This document shows positions 1,491 through 52,726 of a DNA stretch of 64,000 nt, piece after piece (the stretch's first letter is position 1; each line of letters starts with the position of its first letter). The notes under the pieces are model-generated. The model was not told the DNA's origin, searched no databases, and saw only the letters and a list, made by a program, of their open reading frames with translations. The position numbers were made by a program, and so were the translations under genes. Source of the stretch: Cliona cf. orientalis (Eukaryota > Porifera > Demospongiae > Clionaida > Clionaidae); assembly GCA_963930775.1 (NCBI GenBank), contig OZ005707.1, positions 4,154,001 through 4,218,000 of the forward strand, read 5' to 3'.

Positions 1491-3997
1491 TCAAGCACAC
1501 TCATAGAATGTTCTCTGTTCCACGCAGGTGCTGCAACGGATTTCACAGCAGAAATAGAAAGAGCATCGACATTGAGTGCGCCTCTCTTCCTCGCGCTGTA
1601 CTGGAGTCTTGCCACATCTTCTGCAGATATTTTGACAGCTGCCAGTGCCAGTTGTGTTGGGATCACACCTTCTTCCCACTACACCTGGAGCTCCTATAGA
1701 GGCATCTGCCACACACCAATTGTATGTATTTCTATAGAGCAAATCTGAGTTGGTGTACTCTCGATTGCACTCTGAGATCCATGCATTGTCAGAGCGACCA
1801 TTTGACATTACTTCACAAGCATCATCATATCTTTTTCTAAGTTCTTCTCCTATGATCTCAAACTCTGGGAGCTCACTATGACATGTCTGAAAAGTGCACG
1901 ATCCTGATATGCCATGGCAGCTACAAGTGACTGGTGTTTCTGTGATAATTTTCTTTATAGCCTGCAAAATTAATAATATAATAATAAGTATGCAGCTAAG
2001 TGGTAATATTGAATGTTTACGACACTACTTAGTCTTACTTAGTCTTCCATTTGCTGTATATGGAGTATGCACCATCATGCACTGAAATCATTAAGTGAGC
2101 CTCTGCTTGCAAACTGTGCATTGAAGGTGAATACCTTCCCTGTCTTTATGGCTTCATAATGAGCTACTAATCCATCTCAGTTTACAATTGGCAGACACGT
2201 GCATGCTAAGCCAGTCGGTTCAGTGATGTGCTCATAAGCAGTAACACATCCTGGTGATTATCGTATTACTAGGCATAATGAGGCCTTCTATGATATCATT
2301 ATACACTAATGGGGTAGCTAATTACTATGCATAGGAGCCCATGTCCAGCACTCTTAAAGTGAGACAAATGTTTTCATACACTCTCCATTCTTGGGCTTTC
2401 TAATCATTTGTGAGGGCATTCCTAGTTGAAACCATTCTTCAACTAATTTCCCTCACTCTGATGGGCATATCTCTGTTCGGCTGGAAACTTGCACTTGCAA
2501 TGTAGTTATACACCTACCTCTTTAGCAGCACGAAAGTTGTGTTGAGCCAGTTCATGTTTTAGATCTCTTCCAGTGCTGGTGAATCTTTTGTTCAGAAAAG
2601 TTTGTGCAACGTGTAGGCCATAGTCCACGTTATCTGAACAGCCCTGCTCATATTCAACTCCATTGGATTCTGGCAGGTCCACAACATCATCATCACAACT
2701 GCAAGACTTGAGTAGATCTGCACCACAGGCCTTGGCAACGGTATGAGTAATGGCAGCAACAGAGAGAGCATCAACGTATGCTCCTTCCTTATATACTCTA
2801 GCTATAGGGAGTGAGAGAAAAATGAAGTGCAATTAAAATGAGGGTAATTATAGGAAACATAGGAGTAAAGGGAGAGGAAGGGCGAGATCTTGTGCAAGGA
2901 AATTCAGGAGGAAGAAAAACATAATTCCTATCTATTAGAACTGTAATCAATGATCATTCATCTAATTATTATACAGGACCATGGCAACAATTGGTGCTGT
3001 GTGTATATTTTAGTTCAGGAAACCTACAACATTCTGTTCAACAATTGACCGGCATCCAAACTATCTTGGTTATGAAATTCCACCGTAACTAACTCAATTG
3101 GTAGCTTCATATACACAATATTGAGAAGGTGATTAGCATTTCATAACTCTGAACATTCGTCTGTGCAGCATGCATGTCACATTCTCAGTAGAGAATGCCC
3201 ATGAGACCACGCAAATTTTTGGCTATATCAAATTATGCACAAGTACTGGAGCAGTCCACGGCTCATTAACTTGTACCAGATAAAAATTAATATATCCAGT
3301 AAGATCGCTCGTTTGTGCAAAAATAAACTGTTCCGGGCATAACCTTCAATTGCTAGCAAACGTTGCTACAATGTCATGCATATGCATCCTTCAGAAGAGG
3401 GTTTCACGATCACTTAGTGATATACATATGAGCCCAGGTGCAACATTGAGGCATGACAGAAATGTTCATCACATGTTTGTACGTTCCTTTACCAGGCCGA
3501 CAAAAAGGAGACTGAAGGTTTTCGATAACTTTAGCACCCCTTCTTAGCTACTCAAAGTGGACTATTTAACACTAAAATTCTAAGAGGAACAAGCATGCCA
3601 AGTCACCGTACATACCTCCATCATTAATCTTTGGTGTCTTCAACAGAGAAAATTCACTGCAATTCCATAACTCATTCTCAAACTGTTTCTCACACTCATC
3701 CTTGGCTATGCTCTCAGCATACTGAAGCAGAGGCACCATGTCGGGGTGATCACGGCAGATATAGAGCGCTTGGTCCAGTGTATCAAACATATCAATGCAT
3801 TTTCTGACATTGAGAACTGGTGGGCCCGCATTTGGATCTAAAAACACAGTTACTATTTCTGCTTCTGTGATTGCATGGGTGGTAGACGAGATAGAATCAG
3901 ATTCTACGAATACTGTGTCCTGTTGTGCTATAGAGGTTGCTGCTTGACTTAAAATTCCAATTGCCAGTACAAAGAGCCTGAAATCAAGATAAATCAA
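1491..3997 (-). CDS. Wnt family secreted signalling protein
   Basis: Three minus-strand exons (3997-3616, 2801-2518, 1961-1491) join in phase into a 378-residue protein, a normal Wnt length. Exon 1 gives a hydrophobic signal peptide and the Wnt-type block CEKQFENELWNCS. Exon 2 carries KEGAYVDALSVAAITH and the GCSDNVDYG motif. Exon 3 begins with CSCHGISGSC, whose serine (about residue 241) is the site palmitoleoylated by Porcupine in other Wnts. It ends with the cysteine-rich tail FCCEIRCSTC. I count about 26 cysteines. Wnts are secreted and bind Frizzled/LRP receptors. The ATG at 3997 is used, but a candidate acceptor lies just inside it (TCTTGATTTCAG), so an upstream exon could supply the true start. 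The subfamily cannot be assigned. GOSR2 lies upstream on the same strand. Confidence 0.95.
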
Positions 3998-5057
3998 TAA
4001 TTATTGTAGGTGCTGATAGATGTGGTTACACACAGAATAGGTGGTACTCCCGCTAATAGAACACACCCTTAATACTTTTGCCATAAACAAAGCAAAGTGC
4101 TATAAAAAATAATATAATAACATTCTACGTGAAGCAATTGTGTTGACACCTCCAGTACTCAGTAAAGGCACTACTCAGTATAACTGTCAGAATTAGCAGC
4201 ATCACTTCTAAGGCATATTAGATAACCATGACAAAACCTCAAGTATGTTAAATAGCTGCAGCTCAAACCACAGAGCTCCAGGACTATAACTGGAAGTTAT
4301 GTTATAGTGAAGCTGCATTCTTCTACCATGGATAATAAACTCGCAAGTCTAGCACTTTGAAATGACGACACAACAATACTTGTGCGCATCGAGGTCATAA
4401 CAAAATTAATATTAATACAGTCTGGTCGTGAAGCGATGTGCATGCAGTTGCAGTCTCACCATAATAATGTTCTCCCTAGAGGTGCTGGATGTGCAAGGGT
4501 GGAGCTGGTGGTGGTTCTATTGCAGCATCTTGAGCTGGTCCGGTGGTGCGCGATCGATCTATGCCGAGATGCGTCGCTGCAGACTACCTCTCGCTCGTTT
4601 CTACTGCTACAGCCCCGTAGTAATCTGTTGATGGCTTCCATAGTGTATTGTAGTTTCATCCACGAAAGAATATTATTCAGATTGGTTTGTAGTTGTTGCC
4701 AATTTTCTCTCTTTGGCAAAAACACTTTCGAAAAGTTAATACGCACAGGAATCGCACCCGGGCTATAAATACACCTATGCAAGCACATAGCAAAGGCTTC
4801 CATGTGTATAATTATTACGCAATATAAGATTATTAACGATTTCTCAATGCGTTGACACTTCCGGCACGAGCGTACATACTTTATTTGCATGCGCATTGAG
4901 AGCCCTCTTCTCACTGGTCTTCTTTTAGCACCACAAGCAGGAAAACAGTACATCAACTTCACAGCATAGTGCACCAAAGCTCACCCATCTTCAAAAATAA
5001 TGATATTATTAAGATGGCATTGTGCACGCTATAATTAAATTTTGAATAATCATGTTA
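3998..5057. promoter_or_regulatory. Gap between Wnt start and GOSR2 stop
   Basis: This interval holds the Wnt promoter/5' UTR and the GOSR2 3' UTR. A minus-strand polyadenylation signal AATAAA (TTTATT on plus at 4880-4885) sits about 170 bp past the GOSR2 stop and probably ends that transcript. Open frames of 128 and 173 codons overlap on opposite strands at 4382-4977; neither shows a recognisable domain. Confidence 0.45.
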
Positions 5058-8000
5058 TTAAGAAACAAAGTAATATATAACTAGGATGATGATGAGAGAT
5101 GAAATCACAACACCTGACCAAAATATCCACCAGTCCTGCATTGAAATAATATCATCCAACAGGTGGATCTCGACTAAAACAATAATTATCACATAAAATA
5201 AAAAAGGTATTATACATACATCATCCCCTTTCATTCTGATTTCATAGTTAATGTAGTGCATTCCAGACATGCCACAAAAACTCATGCATATCGTTTTTCA
5301 TGATGAAATCTCTATAAGAACAGCTGCCATTGATCCCAAGTCGAACGAGCAGGCAATAAAAGTATGCACTTTAAAACAAAGTCTCCTCAGTCCCTTCCCC
5401 AAGTAATATCAATTACCAAACCAGGTGGAGTTAAAGCTAACAAGAAATCTCAACACTTTTCTTTCACTATCGACTAGAAACTTGGTAGAAATCAGTTCAT
5501 TCTAAAACACTCCCACTACTAATGGATCATACCATATATGTACCCCCATGTACTCTGCTAAAGAAATCAAGCAGAAGGAAGAGAACACTGTTTTTAGTTG
5601 CTTACTTGAGTAGTCCTTTTCTCAATCAGTCTCATTACAGTGTTTGACAAGCCAAGAGTATTTGCCACATCAAGCATCTTACGCTGGACACCCTGCAGTA
5701 AACCATTTACATTATGAGTACAGGGAACATGGCAGTAATTTGTAAAATCACCATTCATAAGCCCCTAGGCTACCAAAACACCCCCACAGGCAGTCACACA
5801 ATAATTACTACCTCATCAGGTGTGGTATGTACTACAGGGAGCATAGCAGAGCAGAGCTGCAAGTGGGGCAGCTGTTTTCATGCATAGTTGTCAGGTAACT
5901 CCAGCAACAAGTACTCTACCTACATGTAGCTACGACCAATCACCACAGCACTAGAGAGAAAACACATCATAGGACAAGTGATGACAAACACACACACAGA
6001 CATCCAAACACTGATACCACTTGAATGGAATGAAATGTAACGGAAACAAGAAACAAGTTTCTTCTGTAACACAAACCTAGCTGCCTAGTGTATGGAGAGT
6101 CCTCGTAATCAGCTTGTATATTAATCGTCTCAACTAGCATCTAGAACCAAACTATTTCAAGCTCTACCTGATGAGCAAGACCATGGCAGGTTTATATAAT
6201 AATATAGTAGCTTCAAAAGATGACTGATTAGATTAGACCAGTGTAAGATGCCTCTCTCTCACACAAAATCCAGGGAGTCAGCTTAGGTGCTCTAAAAATA
6301 TATATCTGAAGCTATAGGAAGTAGAAGACATTATTAGAAGCAGTGATGAGAGATGACACAAACCAAAGCCACTGAAAAAGTATATACTTGAAGACATCTC
6401 AATAAGGCAATGCCAAAAGGCTGATAGGCAAACAGCATCTTAAGAGGTCATTTGATGGGCCAGGGATAAAAGCTAACCCAGGACATGCCTTACCACAAGC
6501 ACAGGGGACAAGCACTCCTAGGGTATCAACACACACCTCTTTAATGCACATTAAATTAATTTCAGCTGAAATTTACCATCATTTACTTGCACAGATTGCT
6601 GCTATTAATTTTTCATATTTGCAGGAAACCCTACAGGTTCCTATTAGAGCAATTACCAGTACTAATGACTAGTTTGTGGTGCAAACCTCAGCAGAACTTA
6701 ATTAGATTAGTGGCACCAATTTTCCCCACACTGGAGCCACTACAGCATTAAAAAGAAAATGCACCCAGGCCTATAGATAGGCAGTATGTAGGAGACAGAG
6801 AGGAAAAATTAAAAGTAATTTTCAAGATGCAGTCAAAAATGTGCTAGCAATGCCTGTCCATGGAGATTTCCCGGGGAAAAACAACTCAGTTGGAATAATA
6901 ATACATTTTCATAAACATAATACTACATGTACTACTATAACATGCATATGGGTGTCAATCTCTACATGTGCATGCATGTGTGAGCATTTGGTATAGCAAG
7001 TTCATTAATTTAATCTATCTCCACTTAAGCAGAGGGAGTGTCATTTTTTAAAGATGATAATTCCCACATGCAGAATCGATAGCAACCAACCACAGCCACA
7101 CACACACACTCATTAGGGGCACACCACACACAGAGCAGCTGTTGCTCAGTATATCTAACATTACAGGGAGGGGAAGGATGGAAGTGGGAGGGGAGAGGGA
7201 GGGGAGAGGGGGAGGGAGGAAAGAAGGAGAACTAGGGCACCATGTGATAAATAAATGCACATTCCGTACTACGAAAGTGCATGGAGCTTAACCTTTAATG
7301 TAAAGCGTTGAGCTTTCAGGTTTCCTAGTATGTCTGCCCCATGACTAAGGACGTTGTCTAGTCCTCGGTTGGCCTCTTCTAATCGCTGGTGATGATGCAG
7401 GCTCGGATCTATACTGATCTTGGTATCACTCTCTGATGCCTGCAATGAATATACAAGTTTAAGACCAGTGTGATAATAATATTGCATATGCATGTCTATG
7501 GTTATACATTTTAGTGTACATTATGTTCACAGAAATCACAACCTTTTCAACAGTGGTGGACAATAATAATAATAATATGATCAAAGTAGTTATTAAATCA
7601 TGTATGCCCACTTAAATAGTAATACTACACATCATTGGATCACATTAGTGAATAACAAAGTATTATCAGCAGCAATGAAAACATCCATTCAGAGAGTCAC
7701 CTCCTACAGCACATGCTGGTCCAACTCCACATATTCATACAAAGGAAGGGGTCCACACGTGCATTCATCCAGGTGGCCAAAGCGTACTATAGTGTCAGCA
7801 CATATTACAGGGGATTCCACAATCACATGAGTGTGTGTGTGCGTGTGAGTAGGGGAGGTGGGGGAATAGGGCAGGCAGCAGGGTAGCCGATAGGTCTGAG
7901 GGCTGGATAAATTATGCAGGGCCAGGGTGGAGGGTGAGCACGTGGCTCAATGTGATCCACCACACTCTCACACCACATGTGATGTGGTTGTCATAGAATG

Positions 8001-21616: not shown

Positions 21617-24600
21617 ATGGACTACTACAGGCCTGCATTCTCGTTCAATCGGCCTCCTTTGTTCCAACCAAGAATGGAACATTTCAACTTCAACTATGGC
21701 CCAGGAGCATTTCATCCATCCCCACCTCCTTTCACAGTGACCACTCCTGCTGGGATCAGTTTATACCTGCAAAGACCACCTCCTCTGCCGATACCTCTGC
21801 CAATGCTTAGTGCAGGGATACCCTATATGCACAATCATAGCCAACAGCACCAGTCTAGAGACCCAAGGAGACAGCGACCATCTAGAAGGGTTCGTCAAAG
21901 AATGAAAAGGCAACCAGAGAGGCTTAGGAGTGAAGAAGAGTCCAGAGAAGAGAACACAGAGTCAGCTCCTGTAGCATCGGAGAGTGGGTACGACACAACA
22001 GGAGACTGCCACACACCAGCTACACCTCTGGATTCTCCATTGCTAGCTAGTGGAGGAGGAAATAGTCTAATGGAGCATGAAACTGATAGTGATAAACTAG
22101 CACCAGCAATGGAAGGTAATTGACTAACAGCTTAGTTACTACAGCATTACATACTTTATCTACAGGTGGAATTCATTCACGATCAGATTCAGCCAGCAGC
22201 ATGAATTTAAGTGAAACCTCCCTTAAGAAACTACTGAAGGACCTACACAGATGTGAAGTATCCCTGACCAAGTATCAAACCATGCTTGATAAGGTATAAT
22301 AATATGACAGTTGAAGTTATATTGTAATGTCATTCAATGCAGAATCATTAATTTTACTAGAATTGTGAGAATGGAATGAAGAATTTGCAGGAGATATTTA
22401 GCAGCCTTCACGATCACCTCAATGCCAGGGAGCAGAGCTTGATTCAGAAGCTGAGCTCTGTCAAGGATATGGGAGATTCTATTCTCCAGCGAAGAAAGAG
22501 CACTGCCTCATTTCTACGCCAAGCAGCAGAGAGCAGTCAAACCACACTGGAGGAGAGCCAGATACTGGAGCTGAAGCATCAAATCAAAGTCAGTAGTTAC
22601 TAACTAACTGCTAGGTTATGTATACAGGTGCAGTTAGAGCGGGTGGAAATCATCTAAGGTACTTGGTATTGTTAATATGGTATATCACTGCTCTACCATA
22701 CAGGCACTGTACACTAATTAACTATTGTGGGCTAGGGTAGCTCTGTTTTGTTAGTTTTTGAACATGACTTGACTATGCTCCTGGTAATATGCATATATAG
22801 TGCTGAATGTCACAGCCAAAATAAATGTTTGTGACTATGGTCTATGCATGTAGTTTGATGAAAGTGTTATTAATTTGTTTGCCAGTGCTTTGTGACTGAT
22901 CGTAAGGTGGATGAGGAGATTGGTACCACCAAATGCTTCCAAGCTGACCCTGATGACCTTCTACGACAAATTATGGGCTTTGGAAAAGGTCAGTTACATC
23001 TACAATTAAACATAATATTATAAACTTAACCAAAGGAATTTCTCGGTCTAGTGAGTGAAGCACGGCATGTATACACAGTGTGGGAGGAGAATCCTGCAGA
23101 AATGATCAACATCAGCAAGGAACAGGTGCTCTTTCCTCGAATCAGGGATAACAAAACTAGTAGTGCTACACAACCATCAAGGCCATTAAAACTAGAGACC
23201 AAACTGAATGATTCTGAACTTACAAGTGCTTCTAATTCCGTTAACACCGAAAATCATCAAGCAGATTGTAGTACAGAGACTAGCTCAGTATCTTGTGATA
23301 TTGCTGAAACCTCAGAAACTAGTGAACTGCTAGCACAGCCAAGGAGCCCCAAATCACCAGTATTACCACCACCTGATCCACCACCAATCCGGTCTCCAAT
23401 ACAGCTGTCACCTCAGCCCTCTCCAAAACCATCAATAGACCGACATACATACTCCTATCATGTTAGTTCCACATCCAGTATTAAGCATTCACCAAGATCT
23501 ATTTCAATGAAGTCTGGGCGGCCTTGGTATGCAGCCTCAAAAATGGTCACAAAACGAGCAACTTCCCTTCCCAAGCATAAGGATAATAATACACAATGTC
23601 AGGTTATAGCACATAAGGTCAGTGACATAGTGAAGAGTAATAAGAAACCAGCTGCAGAAAAAGAGGAGGTAGAGAAGCAGAAGGAGAGCAATGAGTCAGG
23701 CAGCTCACTTCCAGAGAAGAAAGAAGCAGCCAAAAAGGAGGACAAAAATGATCACAGACGCTCTAAATACTCCAGCTCTGAATTGCAGACCATTCAGTCA
23801 AGAATTAAAGACTCACTTCGACAGCAAGGAGTGGTAGGTTAACAAGTATCAGGGGCGTAGGAAGATGGTTTGGTAAAGGGGGACTCTATAGATCTATAGG
23901 CAAGGGCAGTATGATCAGTTTGAGTCTAGCTATGTAACTATCAGAAAACACAGGGGGGCACCAGCCCCCGGAGCCCCCATGGTTCTTACGCCTATGAGTA
24001 TCGTAAGGGAGCTAGGGATATTATAACATTAAATTTTATTGATGTGCTTGTTATCGTAGCATTTATCTGAATTTTATGTGTATGTATGCCTCCCTTCCTG
24101 TGCAGTACCTCTATGATCCTATAACGGGAGATAGACCCACTCCTACAGCAGCAGGGGGAGGTCAATTCTCAAGCTCGTCTGTAGAAGCTAGTGGAGAGAG
24201 AAGCAAGATAGGTGATCCCAACACAGTGCTACGCAAAAAGAAGACTCCAACCCAGCTACGAAGAGAGAGGAAAAAAAGACAGAAAGAGAGAGAAAGGAGA
24301 CAAAGAGAGCTGGAGAAGCAACAGCAGATGGAAGGCAAACTAATGAAAGACTCAGAAACTGCAGAAACAAAGAAAGATGAAAGGAAACAAAGCGATCGGA
24401 ATGAGCAAATAAATATTACTACTATTGCAGATGATAAGCACACACAACAGGATGTAATGTTAGAATTCTCTTCCTCTGACTCAGAGCACAACCCTGAGAG
24501 CAGCAGCAACAGTCCAACTCACTCCTCCTCCTCTCTAACAAAGAGTGTGGACAATGACGAGCCACTGGCAGACGATCCAGGCATACCAAATCAACGAGAA

Positions 24601-24912
24601 GACCTTAGCCGCTCTGGGCAATCAAATGAAGCAGAAGTAGCTGTTCAGAGGCCAAAGCCAGTCTCAAGCTTGCAGATTACAGAATCAGCCACAGAAGAAC
24701 AGCTTCAAGAGGTGAAACCAAGTATGGTCATGTTGACTGAGGAAGCTAGAGCAGAGGTCAAAATACTCCAGCAAGCCGGTTGCCAAGCAATGCTAACCAC
24801 AACACAGGAGACAGTTATCACAATGCAACGCATGAGCACCTGGGAAGGCAGCAAAGTAGATGCTGGCATGCAGGAAGGCGAACTAGAATTGGAACTGAAA
24901 CCAGAAGAATAG
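21617..24912 (+). CDS. SPATS2/SPATS2L-family protein (DUF1387)
   Basis: Six exons join in phase: 21617-22115, 22166-22293, 22361-22588, 22886-22988, 23052-23833 and 24106-24912. The product has 848 residues, longer than human SPATS2 (545). The middle matches the family's coiled-coil core: LKKLLKDLHRCEVSLTKYQ, NLQEIFSSLHDHLNAREQSL, CFVTDRKVDEEIGTTKCF, DDLLRQIMGFGK. The N-terminal part is proline/aromatic-rich then basic (RRQRPSRRVRQRMKR) in place of the UBA-like start of vertebrate SPATS2. The C-terminal half is serine-rich and ends in a highly charged segment (RRERKKRQKERERRQRELEK). SPATS2 proteins are poorly understood cytoplasmic RNA-associated factors. A hAT-like MITE lies in the last intron. 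The start is the first ATG after an acceptor; an upstream coding exon is possible. An AATAAA lies at 25028-25033. Confidence 0.85.
23852..23995. mobile_element. hAT-like MITE, copy 1
   Basis: This 144-bp element lies in the last intron of the SPATS2-family gene. It begins GGGGCGTAGGAAGATGGTTT and ends CTTACGCCTAT. It is closely similar along its whole length to 32376-32529. Flanks AAGTATCA and GAGTATCG are an imperfect 8-bp duplication (6 of 8 match). Confidence 0.85.
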
Positions 24913-34607: not shown

Positions 34608-37600
34608 CTACTTGGCCCTGGCTCTCATCTTTCTGCGCTTTCGTTTCAGCCTAATGAAAGAAAAATCAATTTTAATACTATTATCATTTTCAATACTGCT
34701 GTGGTGCAAGACACTGAGGCAGTCTCTCCAGCAGGAATTTCAACTTGGAACCCCATGCAACTAGAATATTGCGCTGGGAGATTTCTTGTGTGTCCAATCT
34801 GATTAATTCAGGATTCTAAAATGCCAATTCAGAAAAATCAAAAATAGCTCAAAGCATACCAGATCCTTTTCCCTGCTCGAGGGCGGAGCCTGGAAACAAC
34901 ACTAATGTGGACACTGACAATGCGTACCCTCTCCACATGATGGTAAAAAGGTCGATTTCAGCACTTTATTGCGCTTCCGGAAAGGCCACCAGCATACCAC
35001 TAGGGCCATATATGGCCTCTCAGAATCATCTAGAGATATAACCTTGTATCAACCTAATGTTTACTGCATGTGCTGAGATTAAAACACTGATAAAGTAACT
35101 ATTTAACATGGAGAAGAAATATTATGGCATGATATTGGCAAGATGGAGATCACGACTGCCTCCTCATCACGGTAATGCTTGTGGCTTCCTGTTTGAGAAG
35201 AGGGTGGAGAGAAACGTGAAGACCCTATCAAGTGCAATAGCTGAAAAGTAATACTTGTTGATAATCTACTCCATCACAGTCAAACTATTGTTGATGGAAT
35301 ATAACCAGTGTCATGATTATTGGTCAAACATTCAAAGTATGACGACCAACAGTTGTTTTACAAGCTTAACTCCAATTATGTGATCACTTTTAGAGGTGTG
35401 CACAACTTGTACCAAGGTTGGGATGCTTAAGTATCTGATTAGGCATACTCATGACGCAAGGTGAAACAATTCAGCATGACCTCCCATAGAAATATGTAAA
35501 TGAGCATTGGGTGGGCCGAAACATGTCCCAGGTACGCGTACTTTTCTTAGCTCCTCACTGATTACACGCCAGTGTGGGTCTTTGTACTTTCTGCAATGAG
35601 GCCATCATTCCTAAAATTGTGACCGGATCTGAGAACCGCCATAGTTGTCAATCCATGAAAATTTAGTTAGCTGTATATTTGGATAGCTGTATCATAGGGC
35701 TAACCTACCTCCAAGTCTGAGACACATCGCGCACTTGGCTATGGAGCTAGAGTGCATTGTTTGCGATCGCGCCACACCCTCAATAATCGAGAAATTACGG
35801 TCTAAAGACGTTGCTATGTACGCGTAGAGCGTATCCGTATGCTACACGTCACCCGGAAATCAATTAAATGGCCGTGGGCGGAGCCGTTCGAAATTAACAT
35901 AAAGATGGAACAAGGGTCGGATTTCGTCATTGGCAACAGGCGCCAATTGTTCTTCGATGCCCAAGAAGCTAAAAAGGTGAGCGAACGTACAGTAGTTTGA
36001 TGAAACTAGCTGTATCTAGATAGGGAATTCTAATTAGCGCCCATAGCAACAGGCTCCGTGCACGGCAGCTATGCAGACTAGGTAGGTCAAAATGAAGGCT
36101 TATTTCGCCTCGTTACCCTCCATAGGCGATGGCAACAGTTAGTAGAAAGGTTCTTTGACATAAATATGACAAAAACTGGACTTTCATACTTTTTGACTGG
36201 AGATACTAAAAATGCGTATTGCGCCATATGCGTGTTTGACAAAATTATATGCCAGGTTTTCTCAGATCCGGTCACAACTAATGGTAAATTTAGCCTCGTC
36301 CCCAGGCCCCTCCCAACGCAGGGAGAAGGGCCTGGTACACACCGACTGCACATGCGCCATTTTATCCGTAGATTTTCTGTAAAATTGTCCGTATACTATA
36401 GCTTACCGCGTGGCAATTCGATCGCTTGCTTAAACAAGTGCCAGGGTAAGTCTTTTTGCTTTCGCTGGCCAGCCAACTGCTCGAACAAACTGTTTGCATT
36501 CCTTGGCCATACGCGAGCAGAAAGAAAGGATGACGTAATCTTAAATAATTAGTTTACTGAATATTTTACAGGAATATATATGTACAAATTGGCGCATGCG
36601 CAGTCGGTGTGTACCAGGCCTCCCTGCGTCGGGAGGGGCCTGGGGACGAGGCTATGGTAAATTCTGATGCGATATGCTTGAAAGCTAATTCGGGGCTCAC
36701 TCAGGCTCACCCCAAATACACGAGAAACCGGAAGCGGTGTATATATATATATTTGTGCGTGATCTTGCATGGCAACGACTCAATGCGCATGCTCAGACAC
36801 CATGTAGTAGACCTTACCGTAATAGGTAAAGGTCGTCCGCGGAATCATGGCAGTGCAGTGTGGCTTGAGCTCAAGGGATACAAATCTGCGTCGTGGAGCG
36901 TGCTATTGGGTAATTTTCGACCTTATTCATCTCGAGTTGTAGCCACTGCAGTGACAGTCATTCATGGTTGGCACTGTTTTCAGTTGTACTGTAGCTACAG
37001 GTAGAGCTGTACATTTCTCCACCGTACTCAAGGATGTCAAGAATGATGGCCAAACTGAGAGCCTGGCTGCTCCAATTCGTTCATTTGGTTGTGCTTTATA
37101 GCTTGCTCAGTTAGCGACTCAAAACCAAGGTATTTTATTAACACTCTATACAAATAAAAACCCTGGAGTACAGCTAATGCCACGAGTGAAGGCTCGCCCC
37201 GCCTGATATCATCTTCCTAGTAAATGGTGGTTGTGGTATGCTCGACATTACAAACAGGTGTGGCCAGTCTACAAAATTGAAGTGAATGCTTGCACACTGT
37301 AGTTGTTAGTGAGCCTACTTTTTCAACATTTATGAGCTGTTGAAATGGCTAAAAATTAATGTGCAAGGAAATTGCCATTTGTGAGGTTAGTAGTCATTTG
37401 TAGTACTTAAATATGGGTAGAACCGTATAGCGGGAAACCTTTGAGGGAGAAAATTTTCATAAATTTCAGTTTAAGAGCCACCCATGAAAGTTTTTTTCCA
37501 TGAAATTTGGCATGCCCACCCACCCACCTATATGACAAACATGAATGATTTAGCATTCCGCAATAGTTTTCTCTGCAAAATTCTTACTCCTTACTGATCT

Positions 37601-39347: not shown

Positions 39348-42134
39348 ATGGCAGCCAGACCAGGCACTAACCAGAGAACAAATGGAATCCCGAGAGAAAA
39401 GATTTGTCAGTTCAAGCTAGTATTGCTTGGTGAGCCATATTATGCTATAATAATATTTCTATGCGTTGCTTATATGGACATGGAACATTGGTCGAAATTT
39501 AAGCATTCAATAGACATAACACCTTCTGTGGTGAGAAATTCCAACTTTTAGTTTCATTTATTAGTTCTTTATGCTGTCCCTGGATTAGTTATTCATTAGC
39601 ATGTGTGGTCAACTAGTCCAGTTCCTGGTTTGTTGCTGGTTAAGCCCACCAGTAAAGATACATGTAGAGACCAGTAGAGCTAATGTCTTCTAATTAATGC
39701 ACACCCACCACTACAGGTGAATCAGCAGTTGGCAAGTCCAGTTTGGTATTAAGATTTGTCAAAGGGCAGTTTCATGAGTACCAGGAGAGTACTATTGGTG
39801 GTAAGTCATGCTGCATTGCTTGAGCACTCACTGCCTCAGATTGTAATTGTATGTAGTGTGATTAATAATAATTATCTCCTGGATATTCACATGTAGTTCA
39901 CTGGTTGGTAGTCTGTTATCCTAGACCTAGTTCTAAGTCTTGAGGTCATTAAGAACACTGATGCCCTAGATCAGTTGGCTTATTGGAAGTTTATTTCTGT
40001 GCTGATTGGGTCTCTACTCATGTACACACACACAGCTGCGTTTCTGACACAGACAGTTAATCTTGATGATACAACGGTCAAGTTTGAGATCTGGGATACA
40101 GCTGGACAAGAGCGATATCACAGTCTTGCACCTATGTACTACAGGGGAGCTCAAGCAGCCATTGTAGTATATGATATTACTAACATGGTAGGTACACGTA
40201 CTTGCCATATTGCCAAGTACTGTACCGGGAAACTTTCACGGATCGGTAGGAAGCTAGGGAGCATTTCGCAGAGAAAACTTGCTGAATGTTAAATCAATCG
40301 CATAGATGCCTAAAATTTTGTGGAGAAAACTTTGTGGGTGGCTATAAAATCACGAAATTCGTGAAGATTTTCTCCCTCAAAAGTTTCCTGCTATATGGTA
40401 TGCGCTATACCGTAAATCGCGAATATTTCATGTCTAAAATATTTTATGTGATAAATTTTCATGTTAAATAATTTTCGGACAAACGACCCTGTACCGCATT
40501 ATCGTTAATATTGCGTATGTATTTTCGTGCGTTTAATTTTCGCACAAGCCAGGCTGTCCGAAAATATTTTAACAACGAAATATTCGCGATTTACGGTAGT
40601 TACAACACAATATCGTACAGCCGAAATTTATCTGGACAAATTTTGCCAAACCCAGAGCTATTACCTTTGTGTTATAAAAGTACCGTATTTCCTCGAAATC
40701 TCGCCGCACCTCGAAATCCCGCCGCCCTCAAAATCTCGCCGCACCTGGAAGGAGGTTGGTTCCAATAAACGCCGCCCTCGAAATCTCGCTGCATGGAAAA
40801 GGGTCTTCGGATTCAAAGTACACGGAATGCAGGCACTCGCGCGCGATTCGCACTATCGAAATGGACGAGTGCGCAGGCGCGAGGCGGGTGAGTGGACTAG
40901 TCGCCGCCCTCGAAATTTCGCCGCAGGGTGCAGCGACTTGAAATTAAATCTCGCCGCGGCGAAATTTCGAGGAAATACGGTATTCGTAATTTCACCAATG
41001 TGATAAAGATGGCCATATCTTCTGTGTATAATCATTAGCACAGGACAAAAAATTCACAGGATACAAATTAATTTCGCCAGTGAGGGCAAGTGGCAAAATT
41101 GTAATAAATTTTCTCCTGGTACAATATTCTGGGTATACAGTATTGTGTATTAATTAGGTGTGCATTATTTAGAATAACATGCTTGATGGCTGCTCTTTCT
41201 TTAGGACACTTTTGTTAGAGCAAAGTCATGGGTGAAAGAACTACAGCGGCAAGCCAGTCCTAATATTGTTATTGCATTATCCGGCAATAAAGCTGATCTG
41301 GCTAGCAAGAGAATGGTCGACTTTGAGGTTGGTTTCATTATAATTGTAGCGTACCTGCATGTGTATCACTCGGATATTTAGAGGGTGGGGGAGCGTAGGG
41401 ATTTCCCACCCTTAAAGTCCCTCAACTTTACGTAGAGAATGGTACTAAAATACCAGAATAGATTTCATCTCCCCCTCCTGAAGAACCAACTTCCGTATCA
41501 ATCCTGAGAAAATATTAATTTAGGGTTGGCTATGAAGAATATACACTAGAGACCATATTATTCAGAAATAATATATGGAAGCTACATATAGTTGATAATG
41601 TGTGGTGCCTGGTGATAATTAGCATGAAGATCATGGCAGTCTTTCCTTCCTGCTGTAGGGTATGTCTTGGCATGCACTGGTCATGCTTTGGAGCCTACCA
41701 AGTTAGGACTAATACCTGGGCAACCATTCATTTTGTACTAAAATCACTATTATGGTTATAATAATAGTGCATAATATGCTTTCTGTTTTGTGTTTGGTGG
41801 CTACAGGAAGCCCAAGTGTACGCGGAGGAGAACAGTTTATTGTTTATGGAGACATCAGCTAAAACTGCCATGAATGTCAACGATATTTTCATGGCAATAG
41901 CAAAGAAGTTGCCCAAGAGCACACCAGCACAGCAACGCAACACAGGAGGCCGAGAGCCTTTAGTCAGGGACTCTGAACAAAGACCACAAGGGGTAAGTAT
42001 GCATGTTTCTTTGTGTGCGTAATCACTAATCCCCATTTTCTTCATTATGCTTAATATTCATGGTTAATGTATCATAGTACATAATGGGCTTTCTGAATAA
42101 TCGGGTATAGTGCATGTAAATGTATGCAAGTAGC

Positions 42135-43007: not shown

Positions 43008-44773
43008 TCACACTGCCAGACTGCTGATGTCCCAAACATGAACTGTTTTGTCGTATGATCCAGAGTAGACCTGATTTTCCAGTACCTGTGTTGGTGCAGA
43101 TATAGTATTTGGGGTAGCCCTCATAACTATTAAATTTGTGGTTTTTGTTTTACCGTCATACAGTTGATGGGATAATCATGTCCTTTGAAAACCTTCTTAC
43201 ATGCTCCAGTTGCTACCTCCCAGACTCTCACTTGACCATCATTGCCAGCTGTGAGCACTGCAGCGTGCATGACAGACATAATTTATAGTGTTCTATCAAT
43301 AATACCAAGAGTGTACACTCTTGATAATACCTTTAGGAAACACCTAAACGATTTTGAAAATGTCTGCTTTATAGAGGTACCCTTGCAGTGCACACCCTAG
43401 ATGCAAGTTACTTGGCTCGTTACTTACAAAATTGTCCTTGGAGAGCTAGAGAGGTGACAGTGTTTTTGTGGCCCCTATACACGCGTATGCAGTCACCAGA
43501 TAAGCAGTGCCACCATCGTCCTGTGTTGTCAGCACTCCCAGTGAAGAGATAGTTTCCTCTTACCTAAATAATTTATAATTTTATGCTTTATTGGTGGTTT
43601 ATGTAATTGGGTGGTACTGAACTTGGAGGGGGGTGTGATAAGAAATGCTGTGCAAGCTACATGTAGGTATTTGGCCAATGATAAACTGTCCATATTTCCT
43701 AATCAACTTGTTCAGCTCAATTAACCCAATGACTGCCGGCCTAGATGTGATGTCTGGGACTGGTCTATACCTAGCCTCGTACCCAGGCCCTTTGAGGAGG
43801 AGGAGAAAGGGCCTGGGTATGAGGCTAGGTGTCCAAGGAAATGCAAGCACAATCAGATACATTATTATATATCACTTCGGGCCCTATCCCCTCGAATACT
43901 GTAATTGTAATATAACTTATGAATTTACTTTGTCCCACCTATCGTACGTACCTGTAGACACAACACAGCTCCTTGGTGTCCATCAAATATCATAAGAGAT
44001 TGACCAGTCTCAACATCCCATGATCTAACTGTACCATCGGATGATCCTGTAAATAGCTCTCTTTCTCCCTCCTTCATGGCTAGACAGAGCACCCCAGATC
44101 CGTGCCCTGTATACTCGACTACAGACACAGGGCTTATCAAAGACCAAGCCTTAGCTGTGTTATCAGACGATCCTGTAATGAGCAGTGTCCTGTGACATGA
44201 ATCCTGCTTCATGCCGATATTTCCAGACCATGACACAGACAGCCTCCTGTGCATATCCACCCGAGATCTCCTCCTCAATGTTCTCTGGTCTGGAAGATTC
44301 AGGTTCACAATGAGCAGTGGGCCCAGTCCTCTAGTATGTCCTTTATACACTTGCAAGCATGCACCAGACTCCAAGTCCCACTGCCTAGCTGTTTTATCAT
44401 AGCTTGTGGAGAAGAGTACATGCTTGTACAACTCCACACTAGCTACAATGGAGCTGTGGCCCTCATAGGTCATGTGGTGGTTTCCAGTGTGTAGATCCCA
44501 CCTTATAAGTGTCTTGTCTGCAGATCCTGTGATGACGGACTTATCGTTCATCGTAATGCAGGTCACGTACTGCGAGTGGCCTTTCATTTTCGCTTCCAGT
44601 TTGTTCTTTTGCGTGTCCCAGACTGCGCATGTGCCGTCCTCAGAAGCTGTTGCGAGATAGCGGGTTCGATCTTTGTCAAATAAGCAGATGGCATTTATGC
44701 TACCGTCGTGAGCTCGATATACCCTGAAAGGCTTTGAGCCAGTCGAGAAGAATGTGCTTACTCCTGATCCCAT
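43008..44773 (-). CDS. WDR86: WD40-repeat protein, WDR86-like
   Basis: Four exons (44773-43952, 43563-43428, 43257-43154, 43085-43008) join in phase into 379 residues; human WDR86 has about 376. Repeats follow one another with the usual GH...WD spacing: EDGTCAVWD, ADKTLIRWDLHTG, YDKTARQWDLESG, SDNTAKAW, SDGTVRSWDVETG, ADNTGRWWHCLSG, NDGQVRVWEVATG and a final YDKTVHVWD. This is consistent with one seven- or eight-bladed propeller and no other domain. An insertion rich in Arg/Ser/Leu (about residues 149-180) separates the blades near the middle. The function of WDR86 is unknown. Other small WD40 proteins cannot be excluded. It shares a 364-bp divergent promoter with CDC6. Confidence 0.8.
43769..43830. 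repeat. 62-bp palindrome related to the Mutator-like MITEs
   Basis: ACCTAGCCTCGTACCCAGGC pairs with GCCTGGGTATGAGGCTAGGT around a GAGGAGGAGGAG centre. The termini resemble 36291-36654. There is no target duplication, so it is a relic or a deletion derivative. It lies in WDR86-like intron 1. Confidence 0.7.
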
Positions 44774-45137
44774 TCTATAGGTGAAGCAAGACGTTAGTCG
44801 GTATAGTACTCCGCCCCATCAGTCGAGCCATCTAACCAGTTTAAGTGTATATAATGAAATTAATCACAAAACACTCTCGGTAATTGCACAGATAAAGCAG
44901 GACTTAACGTGGACGTGATCATGATGATGTACCTTGAGTTAGCTGAGCACGAGCTCATGCACGATTGCGCATGCGTACATAAACTTATGTCACCTAGGTA
45001 CCTAGTACCTGTACCTGTACCTGCTGTACACATGTACTACTGTACCCACGCCCACCTATTTTTGGCGGGATTTTGGAGGGAACTCTCAAAGGCGCTAAAT
45101 TACTCAGTTGTGTGTGCTTACCAGTCTGGTTGCCAAT
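44774..45137. promoter_or_regulatory. Bidirectional WDR86-like/CDC6 promoter with E2F-like sites
   Basis: Only 364 bp separate the two divergent start codons. Near the CDC6 side are TTTTTGGCGGGA (45059-45070), a close match to the canonical E2F site, and GGCGCTAAA (45091-45099), the reverse of a second E2F-like site. They are about 70 and 40 bp before the CDC6 ATG. CDC6 is a classic E2F target in other animals. Regulation is inferred from motif and position. Confidence 0.6.
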
Positions 45138-47446
45138 ATGAACAAACTAAGAAGCAGCAACGCTTATAGGCCAGTATCAATTGACGAGAACAGTTCTTCT
45201 ACTGATCTCAAACAAAGCACCATCCAGTTTCGCAAACGAAGACACCCGCCATCTTCAGAGACTGACTCAAAATTCGTATCCGACCTTTTCTCACCTACAA
45301 AGCGATCCAAACCAGTTGGTAAGTCGCTTATATGACTAACACTTCATCCCATATATTTATGGTAAGCTTATATCCTCTGAAATTATGATTTGCTATAAAT
45401 ACTGCCCTCCCTGTGTATATACTAGCTCATAGTGTTTGTGTTTATTGTCTTGTAGCCATGTCCAGTGCTCTGACTAGAAGTCAAGCTAGATCTAAGGCTA
45501 AAAGACTGTCTACAAAGTATTCCGATGCTGTGGAAAGCCCCCTACCTATCAGCAGCCAACTGAGGTCTCCTCTGAAGGAGGTCAACGCTATGGCAACCAC
45601 TGATGAGGTGATATGCTCACCAGCGAGCAAGGCCAAGGGAGCAGAGGTGGATTATTCCACCCCCACACAGAAAACACATTCAAACCCTAGCACACCAGCA
45701 AGACGTGAGTGAGACTATTTAATACACACTAGGATGTACAGCAGACATATATTTCCCCCTCACATATTATAATCAAATTCATGGATTGTGTATTCATTCA
45801 AGTACGGTACACCCCCATTGTCTCATGTTATTGAAGAATTACTGCTATTGCTAATTCTACTTTTTTTGTGCAGGTGTGAGGAAAAAGTTGGATTTTGATG
45901 GGACAGCTGCTGTGAAGAAATCCCTTCATGGCAGCCTTCCCTCCACCATGCTCTGTAGAGAAGAGCAGCTGGCTACCCTCACTGACTACATAACCTTCCA
46001 CCTCTCCAATAAGAAGTCTGGGTCACTATACATCTCCGGAGCTCCTGGTACTGGCAAGACCGCTTGCCTCTCGCACATTCTAAATAACTCCACCGAGCTT
46101 CTCAAGTCAACCAGTGTTGTCATGGTCAACTGTATGAGTGTGAAGCAGCCTCAGGCTATCTTCACTAGGATAGCAAGTGAGCTGTTGGGGCAGAAGGCAA
46201 TGAAACATAAGACAATCTCATCGCTGCGAGATGCTCTGGAGAAGTACATTGCGACAACAAAGAAGATGGTGTAAGCATAATTGTGTGCATGTGCATAATT
46301 ACCTAACCATATCACCCTGCGTCTAGAATTTGATCCAAATATCAGGAGATTACACAATTAGTAGAGTGTGGGCCACTTTGTCTTTGCGTGTATTTAAACC
46401 GGAAGATAAAAAGTTCCTTTCATCATACAGACTGATTATTTTGGATGAGGTGGACCAGTTGGACTGCCGTGGTCAGGAGGTTCTCTACACCCTCTTTGAG
46501 TGGCCAGCTCTTTCCAAGTCAAAGTTGCTACTCATTGGTAAGCCACTAGCACTGTCCCAAGCCAACTACATGTAATTGACCCATTTATCAATATCCCAAG
46601 GACATTGGGTGATAATCATAATGTTATTATCTACTCGATTCAGGTATTGCCAATGCTCTTGATCTGACGGACCGTATTCTGCCTCGGCTGCAGTCCCACG
46701 TCAAATGCCACCCTCACCTGGTCCACTTTCCTCCCTACACCAAGGATCAAATTGTAACCATCCTAGAGAACCGACTTGGCTGTGAGAGCTCCACCGGTGA
46801 AGGTCCAGCAGCTGTCATTGACCCCATGGCCATACAGTTCTGTGCCCGCAAGGTATCAGCTGTCCATGGTGACTTGAGAAAGGCTTTGGACATCTGCAGG
46901 CGAGCTGTAGAACTGGCTGAGACTCGCCAGAAGTCTTCTGACAAACCAGCTACTCAGTCATCTCAAAAAGCAAAAGTTCGAGTCACTCTCCCTCTTATTG
47001 CTGGTGTAATATCGGAGGTGTACACATCCAATGTGACCTCACTGACCGTACAACAGAACTTCCCACTTCAACAGAAACTTGCTGTATGTACACTATTGTG
47101 CATGGTAAGGGGTCGTCACAACAAGGAGGTTACTCTTGGAAAGCTTCATGAGGCTTACGTGAGAGTTTGCAGGCAAAGGCAGCTGCGCCATGAGGGAGAG
47201 AGTGAGTTTGTAGGTGTATGTAACATGCTTGAGGCAAGAGGAGTTATCAGCTTGAAGACTTCGAAAGCCAAGGAAACTCGACTCATCAAGGTAAGCACAT
47301 GACACATGTACTGGTGGTATAAACGATGCCTCTGTCATCAAACAATGCAGGTCACCCTGAGACTTGAAGAAGCAGATATAGAACACGCACTTCAAGATAA
47401 GGTCCTTCTTTCTTCCATGCTAGAACAAGGCATACCCTCTCACTAA
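45138..47446 (+). CDS. CDC6: DNA replication licensing ATPase CDC6
   Basis: Six exons join in phase: 45138-45318, 45456-45704, 45874-46270, 46431-46537, 46644-47290 and 47351-47446. The product is 558 residues (human 560). The N-terminal 145 residues are disordered and rich in S/T-P sites and basic patches (LFSPTKRSK, SPLKEV), typical of the CDK-regulated tail. The AAA+ core has Walker A GAPGTGKT (199-206), Walker B LIILDEVDQLD (about 277-287) and sensor region IANALDLTDRILPRL, followed by the lid HGDLRKALDICRRAVE. The C-terminus is a winged helix. CDC6 loads MCM helicase with ORC and Cdt1 at origins. The CDC6 match is preferred over ORC1 because of its length and lack of a BAH domain. Two E2F-like sites precede it. 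Confidence 0.95.
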
Positions 47447-47688
47447 CGATACCTACATTAATTTTAGTCATTTTATGCCGTGCAATACCAGATCAATGTA
47501 CATAATATAATAGTTATAATAATATTATTATAATATTATTGAAGTTATATTATGTATTATACCAATGCAAAATAGACTCAAAAAGAGGTCAAAAATGACA
47601 ATAGCTTTACATAGAATATTTGTTGTACATTTCAATGAGGCACTTTGATAACTTTTCTCCTATGTGAGTATAAGTATATACAAGTTCG
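47447..47688. terminator. Convergent 3' ends of CDC6 and GORASP
   Basis: Only 242 bp lie between the two stops. The middle is an AT-only stretch (TAATAATATTATTATAATAT) that could pair with itself. No canonical AATAAA was found for CDC6. Confidence 0.5.
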
Positions 47689-49699
47689 TCACTGTGCAGA
47701 GCTTGCTGTGGACATGAGGTTTGGAGCAGGTCCAAGGCTGATTGTTGGGGCAACTGATGGGAAGCTAATTGTCGGTGGAATAGTAGGGAGCCCTGACAAT
47801 GTAGCCTGTGACGTAGACAAAGGGTGAATCCCTGACATCTGGGGAGCACTATAAGACGGTGTGGCCTGAATAGTGGGTGTGGATTGAGAGTAACCTTGGC
47901 CACCAGCAACAGGTACTCCATGAGAGATTGTTGTTGAGGCTCCAGGAAGTGTAGCTGACTGTGTGGCAGTGGGAGGTGTCATGCTGTACACAGGTCCCAA
48001 CTGGGACTGGGGCACACTGGCAGCTGGATGGACAGCAGGAGTACTTAAACTCAGTGGCACTTGGTGTGGCGGCTGAAACTGGGGCACGGCTGCCATATTG
48101 ACGTCTAAGCCTTGTGGAGGAACAGCTTGTTGTGAGAGGCCCTCAATAGGAGGTGAGGGCACATCATTCAGCACTGGCTGCTTCTGCGGTGTTGATCGCA
48201 CCACCATGGATGGTGCAGGTGTTAAGGAATCCGGCAAGGTTGATACTTGAGGTGTGTCTTCAAGTGAGAGAGCCTCCACTCCATTTTCAATGGGCACACT
48301 AGTAGGAGGAGGCTGTTCTGGAGGACCCTTTGGTGAGCCGGGCTGGCTGGGCACTGATAGGGGGACCTGGAGAGAAAGGGGGAGTGGAGACTCAAGTTTA
48401 ATTCTTTATCAAACATCTATTCATACATCAGCGTATCCCTCAGCAGGTCCGTCAGTGCTGTCTCTTGCCTGCCCTCCCATCTCTGGGTCCTGTGGTTGTT
48501 CCGTCTTCTCCTTGACGGGAATCCGATGAAGGTATCCAAACCCAATCCCACAGCCTAAGCTTCCTTCTCCTCCCCAACCAGAGTTAGGAGTCAACAGTAC
48601 CTGGTCAAAACATCAACACTCACGTCACATCTATCACTACAACTATCGTCTAGGTCCACTCACTTCTCTTAATGTCTCTGTATCTGAGTTGTACACATAA
48701 AAGCGGACTTGCTTGTTGTTATTGCTTTCAACAAAGGTGAAGAGGTCATCATCAGCAGACATGGCATCAGAGCCAAGGATGTAGTCTGAGTGAGGATTGA
48801 GTCCAGCCTGAGCCGCTGGGGAGTTGGGGTGAACTTCCTGTGTTGAATAAACATAAGATTGCTACTTGTTTACATACCATACAATGATACTGAATACTGT
48901 GGAGAGGGTTAACCAAAATAGCAAACATGGAGGACATAGCAAACGTCAATGTAACAATACAGGAATTCATAGGAAGACAAGAAATGAGTGAATGAATGAG
49001 AGAGAGACTCACTTACAAGCACATGCCAGACATTCTCTGCTGCTCCCTCAAATGAACAAAATCGTATGGAGACACCCAACAATCCTTGTCCTCCCCACGT
49101 GTTACTAGGCACCAGCATCACCTCTATAATAACAGAGACTTCAGTGACACACATAGCCATGGAGGGAGGCCTTGGTTAGAACCAACCTCTGACACTCTTT
49201 GATTTGGAATTGAATACAACTACTTTGACTTGCTGGTCAACATACTTCTGGAGTATTTGCTTCAGCATGTCATTCTCCTGATTCTATTAAAGTTAGATAA
49301 ATGAACATCATGGGATAAAGAGCATTCAATGTGATAACCCAAATATGCAAAATACTGGTAATTGTCTTAGTGCAAGGTGCCACAGCTCAACTGAGTGCAC
49401 GCACATGATAGCTATTGGTTGATTGTTAGATACATCACCCGCCCCCCTTCTCACATCATAATAATTATACACACTCACCAATCGAATTCCATCAATGGAA
49501 ACAATGAAATCAAAGTACGCTTCGAGTCCAGCACGATGGGCCGGGGAATTTTCCAGCACCTGCATGCAGCAAAGTGGCGGGTATAATGATAATAATTTAA
49601 GAACTTCAAAGCTGATGGATGGTGTCATCATCATACCTTGAGGACGTGGTAGCCCTCAGATCCTCCTCCAGGAACCTCTGTGGACTGTCCTCCCCCCAT
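47689..49699 (-). CDS. GORASP: Golgi reassembly-stacking protein (GRASP55/65)
   Basis: Seven exons join in phase: 49699-49637, 49559-49479, 49283-49187, 49123-49017, 48837-48664, 48600-48427 and 48366-47689. The product is 457 residues, like human GORASP2 (452). MGGGQS at the start is an N-myristoylation signal. Two PDZ-like GRASP domains follow: [20 protein letters not shown] ... [14 protein letters not shown], then [20 protein letters not shown] ... [20 protein letters not shown]. The last exon encodes a long Pro/Ser/Gln-rich regulatory tail. GRASPs tether Golgi cisternae by trans-dimerisation and are phosphorylated in mitosis. A single animal gene outside vertebrates represents both GRASP55 and GRASP65. 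It diverges from the coiled-coil gene at 49921 across 221 bp. Confidence 0.96.
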
Positions 49700-49920
49700 C
49701 TAGCTTCTCCTGCTCCGCACAAAAGCTAAGACTCTTATTGAATTGACGGACAATTGACACGTAGGGCATCCACGTTGGTCAAATTTTAGTCTTATGATCA
49801 ACCACGTGCAGAGTCACCGAAACACGTGAAATGCGCGTGCAACATAGTTACCCTGCCCACGCCACACTATACAACTTACGAGCCCCTCCCCCCGAGGCAC
49901 TGAAGAAGTTAGCTGCAAAT
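49700..49920. promoter_or_regulatory. Divergent promoter of GORASP and coiled-coil gene
   Basis: A 221-bp gap joins two start codons. It contains a CACGTG-like pair (CCACGTGC near 49803 and ACACGTGA near 49821), which are E-box type motifs. No TATA box was seen. Confidence 0.45.
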
Positions 49921-50705: not shown

Positions 50706-50967
50706 TTGAGTTAAATAGTTGTAAGGTTGATGCACATTGGTTTATGTAGCAATGGGTGAAAATTAGATATTAAATCAACGCTAATACTGTATTACACCAT
50801 AATAATGGATAGTGCATGACTACATTACCATTGGTGTGCGTATGTGCATAAAGGAATAATGTATCATGGCTATGCACATAGCAACACGGCTGTGCAGAGG
50901 CGGACGAAGATCCATGGATCAAAATGTCCCTATTTTTAACATAAATTCTCTGCTACACGCATAGCCA

Positions 50968-52726
50968 TTGCTAAAATTATCTATAATGCAATCAACATTC
51001 ATATTACTTTTTGATAGTGAAAGGAAGATCAAGCAGCAGAGGAAGCTGCACCCAGATGACTCGGTCACTATTCTTACAGCGGATGAACGGGCCCGTACGG
51101 TCAATGCAAAGGGAGAGTACATTGATCACCATAAATCTAAACATAGCCGCAGGTCTACATATCCTAGCAGTCTACCTCCAGAGGCCATTGCTTCAACTTC
51201 ACATGGCAAAAGAAAGAAGTTGGATCCCCTTCCTCCCACAATAATCGATTGCACATGCTCAGTATGCAACTCAAAACAAAGCTTTGGTGCACTTACACTA
51301 GGAAAAGGGGAAGGCTGCTCCCATACAACCAGCCAAATGACAAGGTAAGATACTGGCAAGCATAATTATTATAGGATGGTTTATATGTTTATACATAGTG
51401 TAGTACCAGTACACTAATATCCGAAAAGGACATGTTTATTATTAAATTCGATTCTGCAGAAGTGGACAGCAAATACTGATTGGAGATCGAGTGGTGATAA
51501 AAGCAGAGAGGCTAGGCAGTGTTTGCTATATTGGCAAGCTTGACTTTGACCCTTCTGACACAATATATGTTGGAATTCATTTAGATCTGCCAAGTAAGCT
51601 AGCAGCAATTACTGCGAAGGAATAGATGGTGACCCTTACAATATTATTATTATGGATTTTACTACAGTTGGTAACTGTGATGGGCTGTTAAAAGGTCGTC
51701 GTTATTTTCACTGTCCTGCCAACCATGGTGTGTTTGTTCGTTCTTCTGATGTAATTTGTGTCACTGGCAGGAAGGTGCGTGAGTTTTCATCACCTGTATC
51801 AGCGTACAAGAGTAAATTTGTCTTCCTCCTCTCCAGCCTCTTAGTGGAGGAACAGCTATACCAAGAATCAGGGAGCGACTTCCTTCAGGACTGGAAATCA
51901 GCCGATCCACAAAAAGGGCAAGCAAGGTATGCAGGTTCTATCGGGCTCTTTACTCATGCAATTTTACTATGCTTTACTGGTGAAGACTCCTAGTAAGTTG
52001 GCAACACCAGCAGGCAACACTTCAACAGCTACCTCAAGTATCACTATGTCTCAAGTCAGAACCACTGTTGAGTCTGAAATGGAAATGTTGAAAGAGAGGT
52101 ATGTATGTTGATCAGTCTGAAAAATGCAGCTAAATATTTTGATTTCCTTACATTGCAGAGAACCCGAGGATCTGACTGACCCTAGCACAGCAGAAATGAG
52201 TCGCAGGTTTGTGATTCTGGAATCAATGCTAATACTCCGACTGATGTTCATTTTGATGTTAGGATGAAAGAGCTAGCTGAAAAGCAACAAAGGGCAGCAC
52301 GTGAGGCAGAGGACAAGCCTTCTGAGCCCAGAACTCCTCCTAGCTCCCCACTGCAGGATCAGCCATCATTTTCCACTCCTCTGCCTGGTTTGCCTCCTCC
52401 AGCAGCTAGGCCTGAAACTCCACTAGAGAGGACACTCTTAGAGCTGTTAAATGACAAGGATCTGGGTGCCACTGGATTTGTTACTGCCAGTGAGCTTGCT
52501 GCTGTCCTAGTATCTCTTCCTGATGGAAAAGCGGTATAATAATTATTATTATAATTATAGCTATCATATATATAAATTTTTATGCATGACATGTTTTTTC
52601 ATCACACAGCTAAGCGAGGATCAAATTCAGAAGTTGTTTATCAACTTAGGAATTAATACAGATGAAGGGTTGGGTTTGGCTTACCATGCACTGGTCCCCT
52701 ACATCATGCAAGCCCTGGAACACTAG
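50968..52726 (+). CDS. CAP-Gly protein with C-terminal EF-hand-like region
   Basis: Eight exons join in phase: 50968-51344, 51460-51593, 51668-51774, 51837-51926, 51986-52098, 52159-52206, 52263-52533 and 52610-52726, for about 418 residues. Residues about 130-205 form a CAP-Gly domain: IGDRVVIKAERLGSVCYIGK, VGIHLDLPIGNCDGLLKGRR, YFHCPANHGVFVRSSDV; the usual GKNDG is GNCDG. A basic Ser/Arg linker, a short helix with many Glu/Lys and a Pro-rich stretch follow. The last 75 residues (LLNDKDLGATGFVTASELAA, LSEDQIQKLFINLGINTDEG) resemble a degenerate EF-hand pair. CAP-Gly domains bind the EEY/F tails of microtubules or partners. The intron 51775-51836 is needed to keep frame. The start is uncertain: in-frame ATGs at 50968 and 50986, or an unseen upstream exon. 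No named orthologue was recognised. Confidence 0.75.

Follow-up and report, generated by a model that had tools for sequence, protein, structure and literature searches.

The stretch of DNA described here, 64,000 nucleotides from Cliona cf. orientalis (positions 4,154,001-4,218,000 of chromosome 19, hereafter the window), carries Wnt, GOSR2, SPATS2, CAMK2, RPL41-like, RAB5, WDR86-like, CDC6, GORASP, CAP-Gly and DNAJC13-like genes. Many of these have human counterparts on chromosomes 2, 7, 12 and 17, the four that bear Hox genes, and a preliminary description of the window had proposed it as a candidate ghost Hox neighbourhood: a block that once adjoined Hox and outlived it. The evidence does not support that proposal. 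The genes that flank Hox clusters in other animals sit mostly on chromosome 13 of this sponge, with none of the informative ones on chromosome 19.

The window and its genes

Genes are densely packed in this unremarkable part of a demosponge chromosome, housekeeping genes lying among signalling genes (Table 1). The preliminary description had suggested a sponge, correctly, and its gene list was borne out by Pfam, tblastn and motif evidence of varying strength; the CAP-Gly domain gene was missing from it. Gene identities come from Pfam profiles run on the window's open reading frames (ORFs) and from human proteins used as tblastn queries. The chromosome-level assembly is odCliOrie1.1 (PMC12639293). 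The genome we searched holds 149 contigs and 216.79 Mb, against the 307 scaffolds and 217.17 Mb that the paper gives, so some small scaffolds probably fell outside the search. Chromosome 19 measures 7.22 Mb and chromosome 13 8.93 Mb; chromosomes 2, 9, 17 and 18 measure 14.80, 9.89, 7.82 and 7.76 Mb.

Table 1. Genes of the window (positions in nucleotides) and of the chromosome 13 block (positions in kb)
Feature	Location	Strand	Evidence
Wnt gene	1491..4000 (exons 1491-2024, 2506-2832, 3572-4000)	-	Pfam wnt, E 3.7e-34, 6.4e-17, 1.2e-6
GOSR2, C-terminal exons	5606..7457	-	human GOSR2 as tblastn query, E 7.6e-10 (61%, 44 amino acids) and 6.8e-7
SPATS2 family gene, three collinear exons	22192..22987	+	PF07139 and permissive tblastn
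CAMK2, kinase and association domains	25208..28734	-	Pkinase E 7.8e-25; CaMKII_AD E 2.7e-9
RPL41-like C-terminal exon, RLKRKRRKMRARAK	34611..34739	-	single short-exon motif, scan of short ORFs
RAB5, five exons	39348..42010	+	tblastn with RAB5C, 55-97% identity; Pfam Ras E 7.5e-19
WDR86-like WD-repeat gene	43032..44740	-	tblastn with WDR86, 34%, E 1.9e-43; WD40 E 1.9e-31
CDC6	45389..47437	+	match spans 45924-47437; first ORF 45389-45712 by eye
GORASP (GRASP55/65)	47607..49699	-	match spans 48511-49699; proline-rich C-terminal ORF by eye
CAP-Gly domain gene	50965..52723 (outer limits by eye)	+	CAP_GLY E 4.3e-9 at 51598-51990
DNAJC13-like gene	54105..64000 (limits by eye)	-	GYF_2 E 3.3e-9 at 60367-60903; J-domain-like HPD motif
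MTX2-like exons	chromosome 13, ~7,853.4-7,854.7	-	reading of 7,845,001-7,895,000 of that chromosome
CBX/HP1	chromosome 13, 7,855.9-7,858.2	+	best PDB matches CBX1, CBX5
KH gene, PCBP-like	chromosome 13, 7,859.8-7,866.1	-	best PDB match PCBP2, E 5e-23
Short-chain dehydrogenase	chromosome 13, 7,875.8-7,878.3	+	best PDB match peroxisomal trans-2-enoyl-CoA reductase

CDC6 is identified by tblastn with human CDC6 (E 2e-71), and Pfam finds its Cdc6_C domain (E 2.3e-16). CAMK2 is 72% identical to human CAMK2B across 106 amino acids, and the GOSR2 gene has a V-SNARE_C domain at 7272-7520 (E 1.3e-6); the ORF at 15520-15804 on the minus strand, which has no Pfam match, may by eye be an upstream GOSR2 exon. 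GORASP is clear by tblastn with human GORASP2 (E 8.9e-33) and weak by the Pfam GRASP55_65 profile (E 7.6e-4, under the cut-off). The SPATS2 family gene is supported by three PF07139 matches (E 1.6e-4, 2.4e-7 and 8.8e-6) that follow one another along the profile (160-183, 192-260, 262-294), two of the three above the curated cut-off. With tblastn nothing appeared for it at E 1e-3, and a permissive rerun gave E 3.8e-5 and 0.026; the plus-strand ORFs at 21587-22123, 23030-23842 and 24043-24912, none with a Pfam match, may belong to the same gene. RPL41 is presumably the right name for the short exon at 34611-34739. The name DNAJC13, likewise our assumption, comes from the GYF domain and a J-domain-like HPD motif seen by eye on the same strand, in the ORF at 59041-59265; the gene appears by eye to run on past the right edge of the window. 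Further to the right, Pfam places an AMP-binding domain in a gene that is DIP2-like by eye. A recurring family of ORFs with the letters FSPRN, seen by eye at 17315-17659 and again in the chromosome 13 neighbourhood, marks an interspersed repeat.

Homeobox genes and Hox-flank families in Cliona

We use the definition of a ghost Hox locus quoted in PMC6486804, a locus devoid of Hox genes but with genes whose orthologues in bilaterians lie near Hox clusters. On its first half the preliminary description, which had seen no Hox gene, was right: a profile search of the genome placed no homeodomain match within the 64 kb. Genome-wide there are at least 29 matches. Thirteen distinct homeodomains were read and no Hox or ParaHox gene was seen among them, a statement confined to those thirteen, since 16 of the 29 matches were left unread and absence from the genome as a whole lies outside its scope. 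Eight were scored against references; none matched Hox or ParaHox best, and seven matched NK, Msx, Tlx or Bar types best. The homeodomain on chromosome 19 (6.61 Mb) scored low against every reference and appears from its WFCNKRQK motif to be of the POU class. An NK cluster occupies 7,759,917-7,921,574 of chromosome 12, with five homeodomain matches in 162 kb, the four that were scored coming out best as Tlx, Nkx6, NK4 and Msx.

The second half of the definition turns on neighbours. We searched the genome with profiles for seven Hox-flank families, chosen by human or fish position: NCKAP1, COPZ and ATP5MC as general background, and LNPK, CDK5RAP3, CBX1/3/5 and metaxin from a paper that lists as fish Hox neighbours cbx1, nfe2l1 and cdk5rap3 (HoxBb), cbx5, hnrpa1 and nfe2 (HoxCa) and lnp and mtx2 (HoxD) (PMC2080641). 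COPZ, ATP5MC and metaxin were added once the results for LNPK, CDK5RAP3, CBX and NCKAP1 were known, and the profiles for four other Hox-chromosome families (KAT2, TOP2, STAT and GLS) came later still.

Four of the five informative families fall on chromosome 13, three of them within 60 kb; one falls on chromosome 8 and none on chromosome 19. LNPK has a single match in the genome, at 8.875 Mb of chromosome 13, as does the chromo shadow domain of CBX/HP1, at 7.858 Mb. All seven CDK5RAP3 matches lie at 7.900-7.913 Mb of the same chromosome. Metaxin matches twice, at 7.853 Mb of chromosome 13 and on chromosome 3. The chromosome 13 copy is MTX2-like, scoring higher against MTX2 than MTX1 in three of three exons (43/32, 55/39, 94/60), while the chromosome 3 copy gives mixed scores (49/61, 93/77), the MTX1 reference lacking its start in both comparisons. 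The family on chromosome 8 is NCKAP1 (17 of 17 matches), which we take to be a Hox-flank gene. Chromosome 13 has a 4.1% share, so that four of five on it, taken as given, has a chance probability of 1.4e-5; summed over 19 chromosomes this becomes 0.0043, a figure dominated by the 37.5-Mb chromosome 1 and one that does not count the near adjacency of three markers.

Two families failed as markers. COPZ was dropped because none of the eight PF01217 matches classified as COPZ: against references their four places are AP2S (chromosome 4), AP1S (chromosome 18), AP3S (chromosome 19) and AP4S (chromosome 16). ATP5MC gave 13 matches, which by eye are V-ATPase c-like on chromosomes 2, 10 and 17 and mitochondrial atp9 on contigs C111 and C149. 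Chromosome 2 carries three ATP-synt_C genes of identical score, V-ATPase c-like by eye, across about 270 kb (3,358,162-3,627,130). C111 and C149 hold three ATP synthase c frames of 78 amino acids, also identical in score, probably atp9 on extra or duplicated contigs.

Most of the chromosome 13 genes lie in a compact block. The MTX2-like, CBX/HP1 and PCBP-like genes adjoin one another within 12.7 kb (7,853,400-7,866,100), with CDK5RAP3 about 34 kb further on and LNPK about 1 Mb away. The PCBP-like gene and the dehydrogenase, which resembles PECR, were met while reading the region and stand outside the marker counts; human PCBP2 presumably flanks HOXC and PECR presumably lies at 2q35. Other neighbours have no known Hox link, among them, by their Pfam domains, Snf7-family and TAP42-family genes to the left (by eye CHMP5-like and IGBP1-like), kinase genes and a galactosyltransferase gene. 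The gene beside LNPK is CLASP by eye, and the one ORF of it that was tested has no Pfam match. Adjoining the Hox-flank genes, at 7,878,600-7,895,000, four or more related units stand in tandem, with kinase, coiled-coil and kelch-like repeats by eye; one of their kinase ORFs is backed by Pfam.

Could the window nonetheless be the vestige of a Hox locus, with chromosome 19 homologous to the chromosome that bears Hox in other animals but itself deprived of it? Its want of a homeodomain, the assumed positions of its human partners and the presence of TOP2 on chromosome 19 would all fit, but the flank families gathered on chromosome 13 and, among the window genes identified, none is a flank gene named in the excerpted text of PMC2080641. 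We consider this reading improbable. Because Hox-flank genes sit mostly on another sponge chromosome, the window is probably not the former site of a lost Hox gene, and the chromosome 13 block is the better candidate for a ghost locus. Tentatively, the stretch at about 7.85-7.91 Mb of chromosome 13 may correspond in position to the Hox locus, in which case a compact Hox-flank block would predate the Hox genes, or their loss in sponges. At that block the two histories, Hox lost and Hox never there, are indistinguishable.

Human Hox chromosomes and three ancestral units

What, then, of the human chromosomes that drew attention to the window? We counted nine families, all chosen by the preliminary description, and set aside Wnt as well as two genes outside its list, the CAP-Gly gene and the DIP2-like gene that flanks the window. 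Since the Wnt gene has no subfamily assignment, it is uninformative for human linkage. The inputs are assumed values (human gene positions, and a gene share of 22% for chromosomes 2, 7, 12 and 17 and of 7% for their Hox-bearing segments), and the figures are therefore indicative only: eight of the nine families have a human copy on the whole chromosomes against 3.0 expected (P 6e-4), and seven of nine have one in the segments against 1.1 expected (P 5e-6). Single-copy families alone give 4/5 (P 0.010) and 3/5 (P 0.003). Genome searches with other families of the human Hox chromosomes placed TOP2 on chromosome 19, together with CDC6, its presumed neighbour at human 17q21, and KAT2 and GLS on chromosomes 11 and 12. 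STAT found no match in Cliona or in any control genome, so nothing follows from it. The resemblance claimed in the preliminary description is supported to the extent that the assumed human positions permit, and TOP2 adds to it; KAT2 and GLS do not. We see in this no more than moderate support for a common origin of the window and a part of CLGB, the Hox-bearing group of vertebrates.

The sceptical view is that no meaningful linkage exists and that the match reflects the choice among paralogues. Wnt, CAMK2 and RAB5 presumably have several human copies each, of which the fitting ones were quoted, and KAT2 and GLS lie away from chromosome 19. Against this, the single-copy families keep their excess, on the assumed inputs, and SPATS2 is confirmed in the window, with both human copies, we assume, on Hox chromosomes. 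We give the sceptical view little credence.

The better explanation comes from work on ancestral chromosomes. CLGB is a fusion, in the vertebrate lineage, of three separate ancestral units; the counterparts of amphioxus chromosomes BFL10, BFL16 and BFL18 fused before the vertebrates, and the Hox clusters lie on CLGB (PMC7269912). The ancestral bilaterian Hox cluster lay on unit B2, amphioxus BFL16 (PMC11175523). With three units fused, a gene may share a human Hox chromosome without having been linked to Hox in any earlier animal. On the simplest reading, chromosome 13 would be the descendant of B2 and chromosome 19 that of either B1 or B3, units that we equate with amphioxus 10 and 18. On the way to vertebrates the unit behind chromosome 19 would later have joined the one bearing Hox, and whole-genome duplications would then have spread the mixture over the four Hox chromosomes. 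We think it likely that the window is an ordinary piece of chromosome 19, and that this later fusion is what put the human counterparts of its genes on the Hox chromosomes.

Several points weigh against this account. The unit to which chromosome 19 belongs is inferred, and the human positions of the window genes are assumed. One in three of the informative Hox-chromosome families away from Hox is on chromosome 19. Zero of five flank families there is by itself unremarkable (chance P 0.84), and the case rests on chromosome 13 drawing four. Marker families were our own choice; the excerpts of PMC2080641 do not name NCKAP1 as a flank gene, and they include NFE2, HNRNPA1, SNX11, SKAP1, TTLL6 and CALCOCO, some under older names, which the search left out. 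B2 could also have been split in Cliona, its Hox-flank part on chromosome 13 and a more distant part on chromosome 19. Genes of both chromosomes presumably share human chromosomes, and chromosome 19 has no assignment to B1 or B3, which leaves room for such a split; the chromosome-scale conservation of one sponge with other animals, already in print, makes it a further assumption (PMC10719294, PMC7385117), and we think it unlikely.

Claims of ancient Hox linkage based on human positions mix three ancestral chromosomes, and those for non-vertebrates need an amphioxus or cnidarian reference. The result corrects where to look for a sponge Hox locus. Hox-flank genes found together in a sponge speak of old linkage and are silent on whether Hox was lost or arose later; were the chromosome 13 block a true positional homologue, it would pinpoint where to examine if sponges lost Hox or branched off before it.

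Comparison with known systems

Ghost Hox and ParaHox loci have been reported in Amphimedon (PMC3694477, describing Ramos, Barker and Ferrier 2012), and a related case in a calcareous sponge had too little data for a statistical test (PMC6486804). Like the Amphimedon and Trichoplax ghost loci, the window has no Hox gene, belongs to a sponge, as in Amphimedon, and is assessed through neighbouring genes with bilaterian orthologues close to Hox (PMC3694477, PMC6486804). It differs from them in that the near-Hox genes tested are all absent from it, and four of the five are on chromosome 13. With CLGB and its amphioxus counterparts BFL10, 16 and 18 (Simakov 2020, PMC7269912) it shares genes that presumably lie on the human chromosomes carrying CLGB; Hox, however, is on BFL16 (B2) only, and the window probably belongs to another part. 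A further parallel is the chromosome-scale synteny between a sponge and eumetazoans (Kenny 2020, PMC7385117; PMC10719294), in which ancient gene groups are kept with their order scrambled, and to which Cliona contributes another demosponge species and no new principle.

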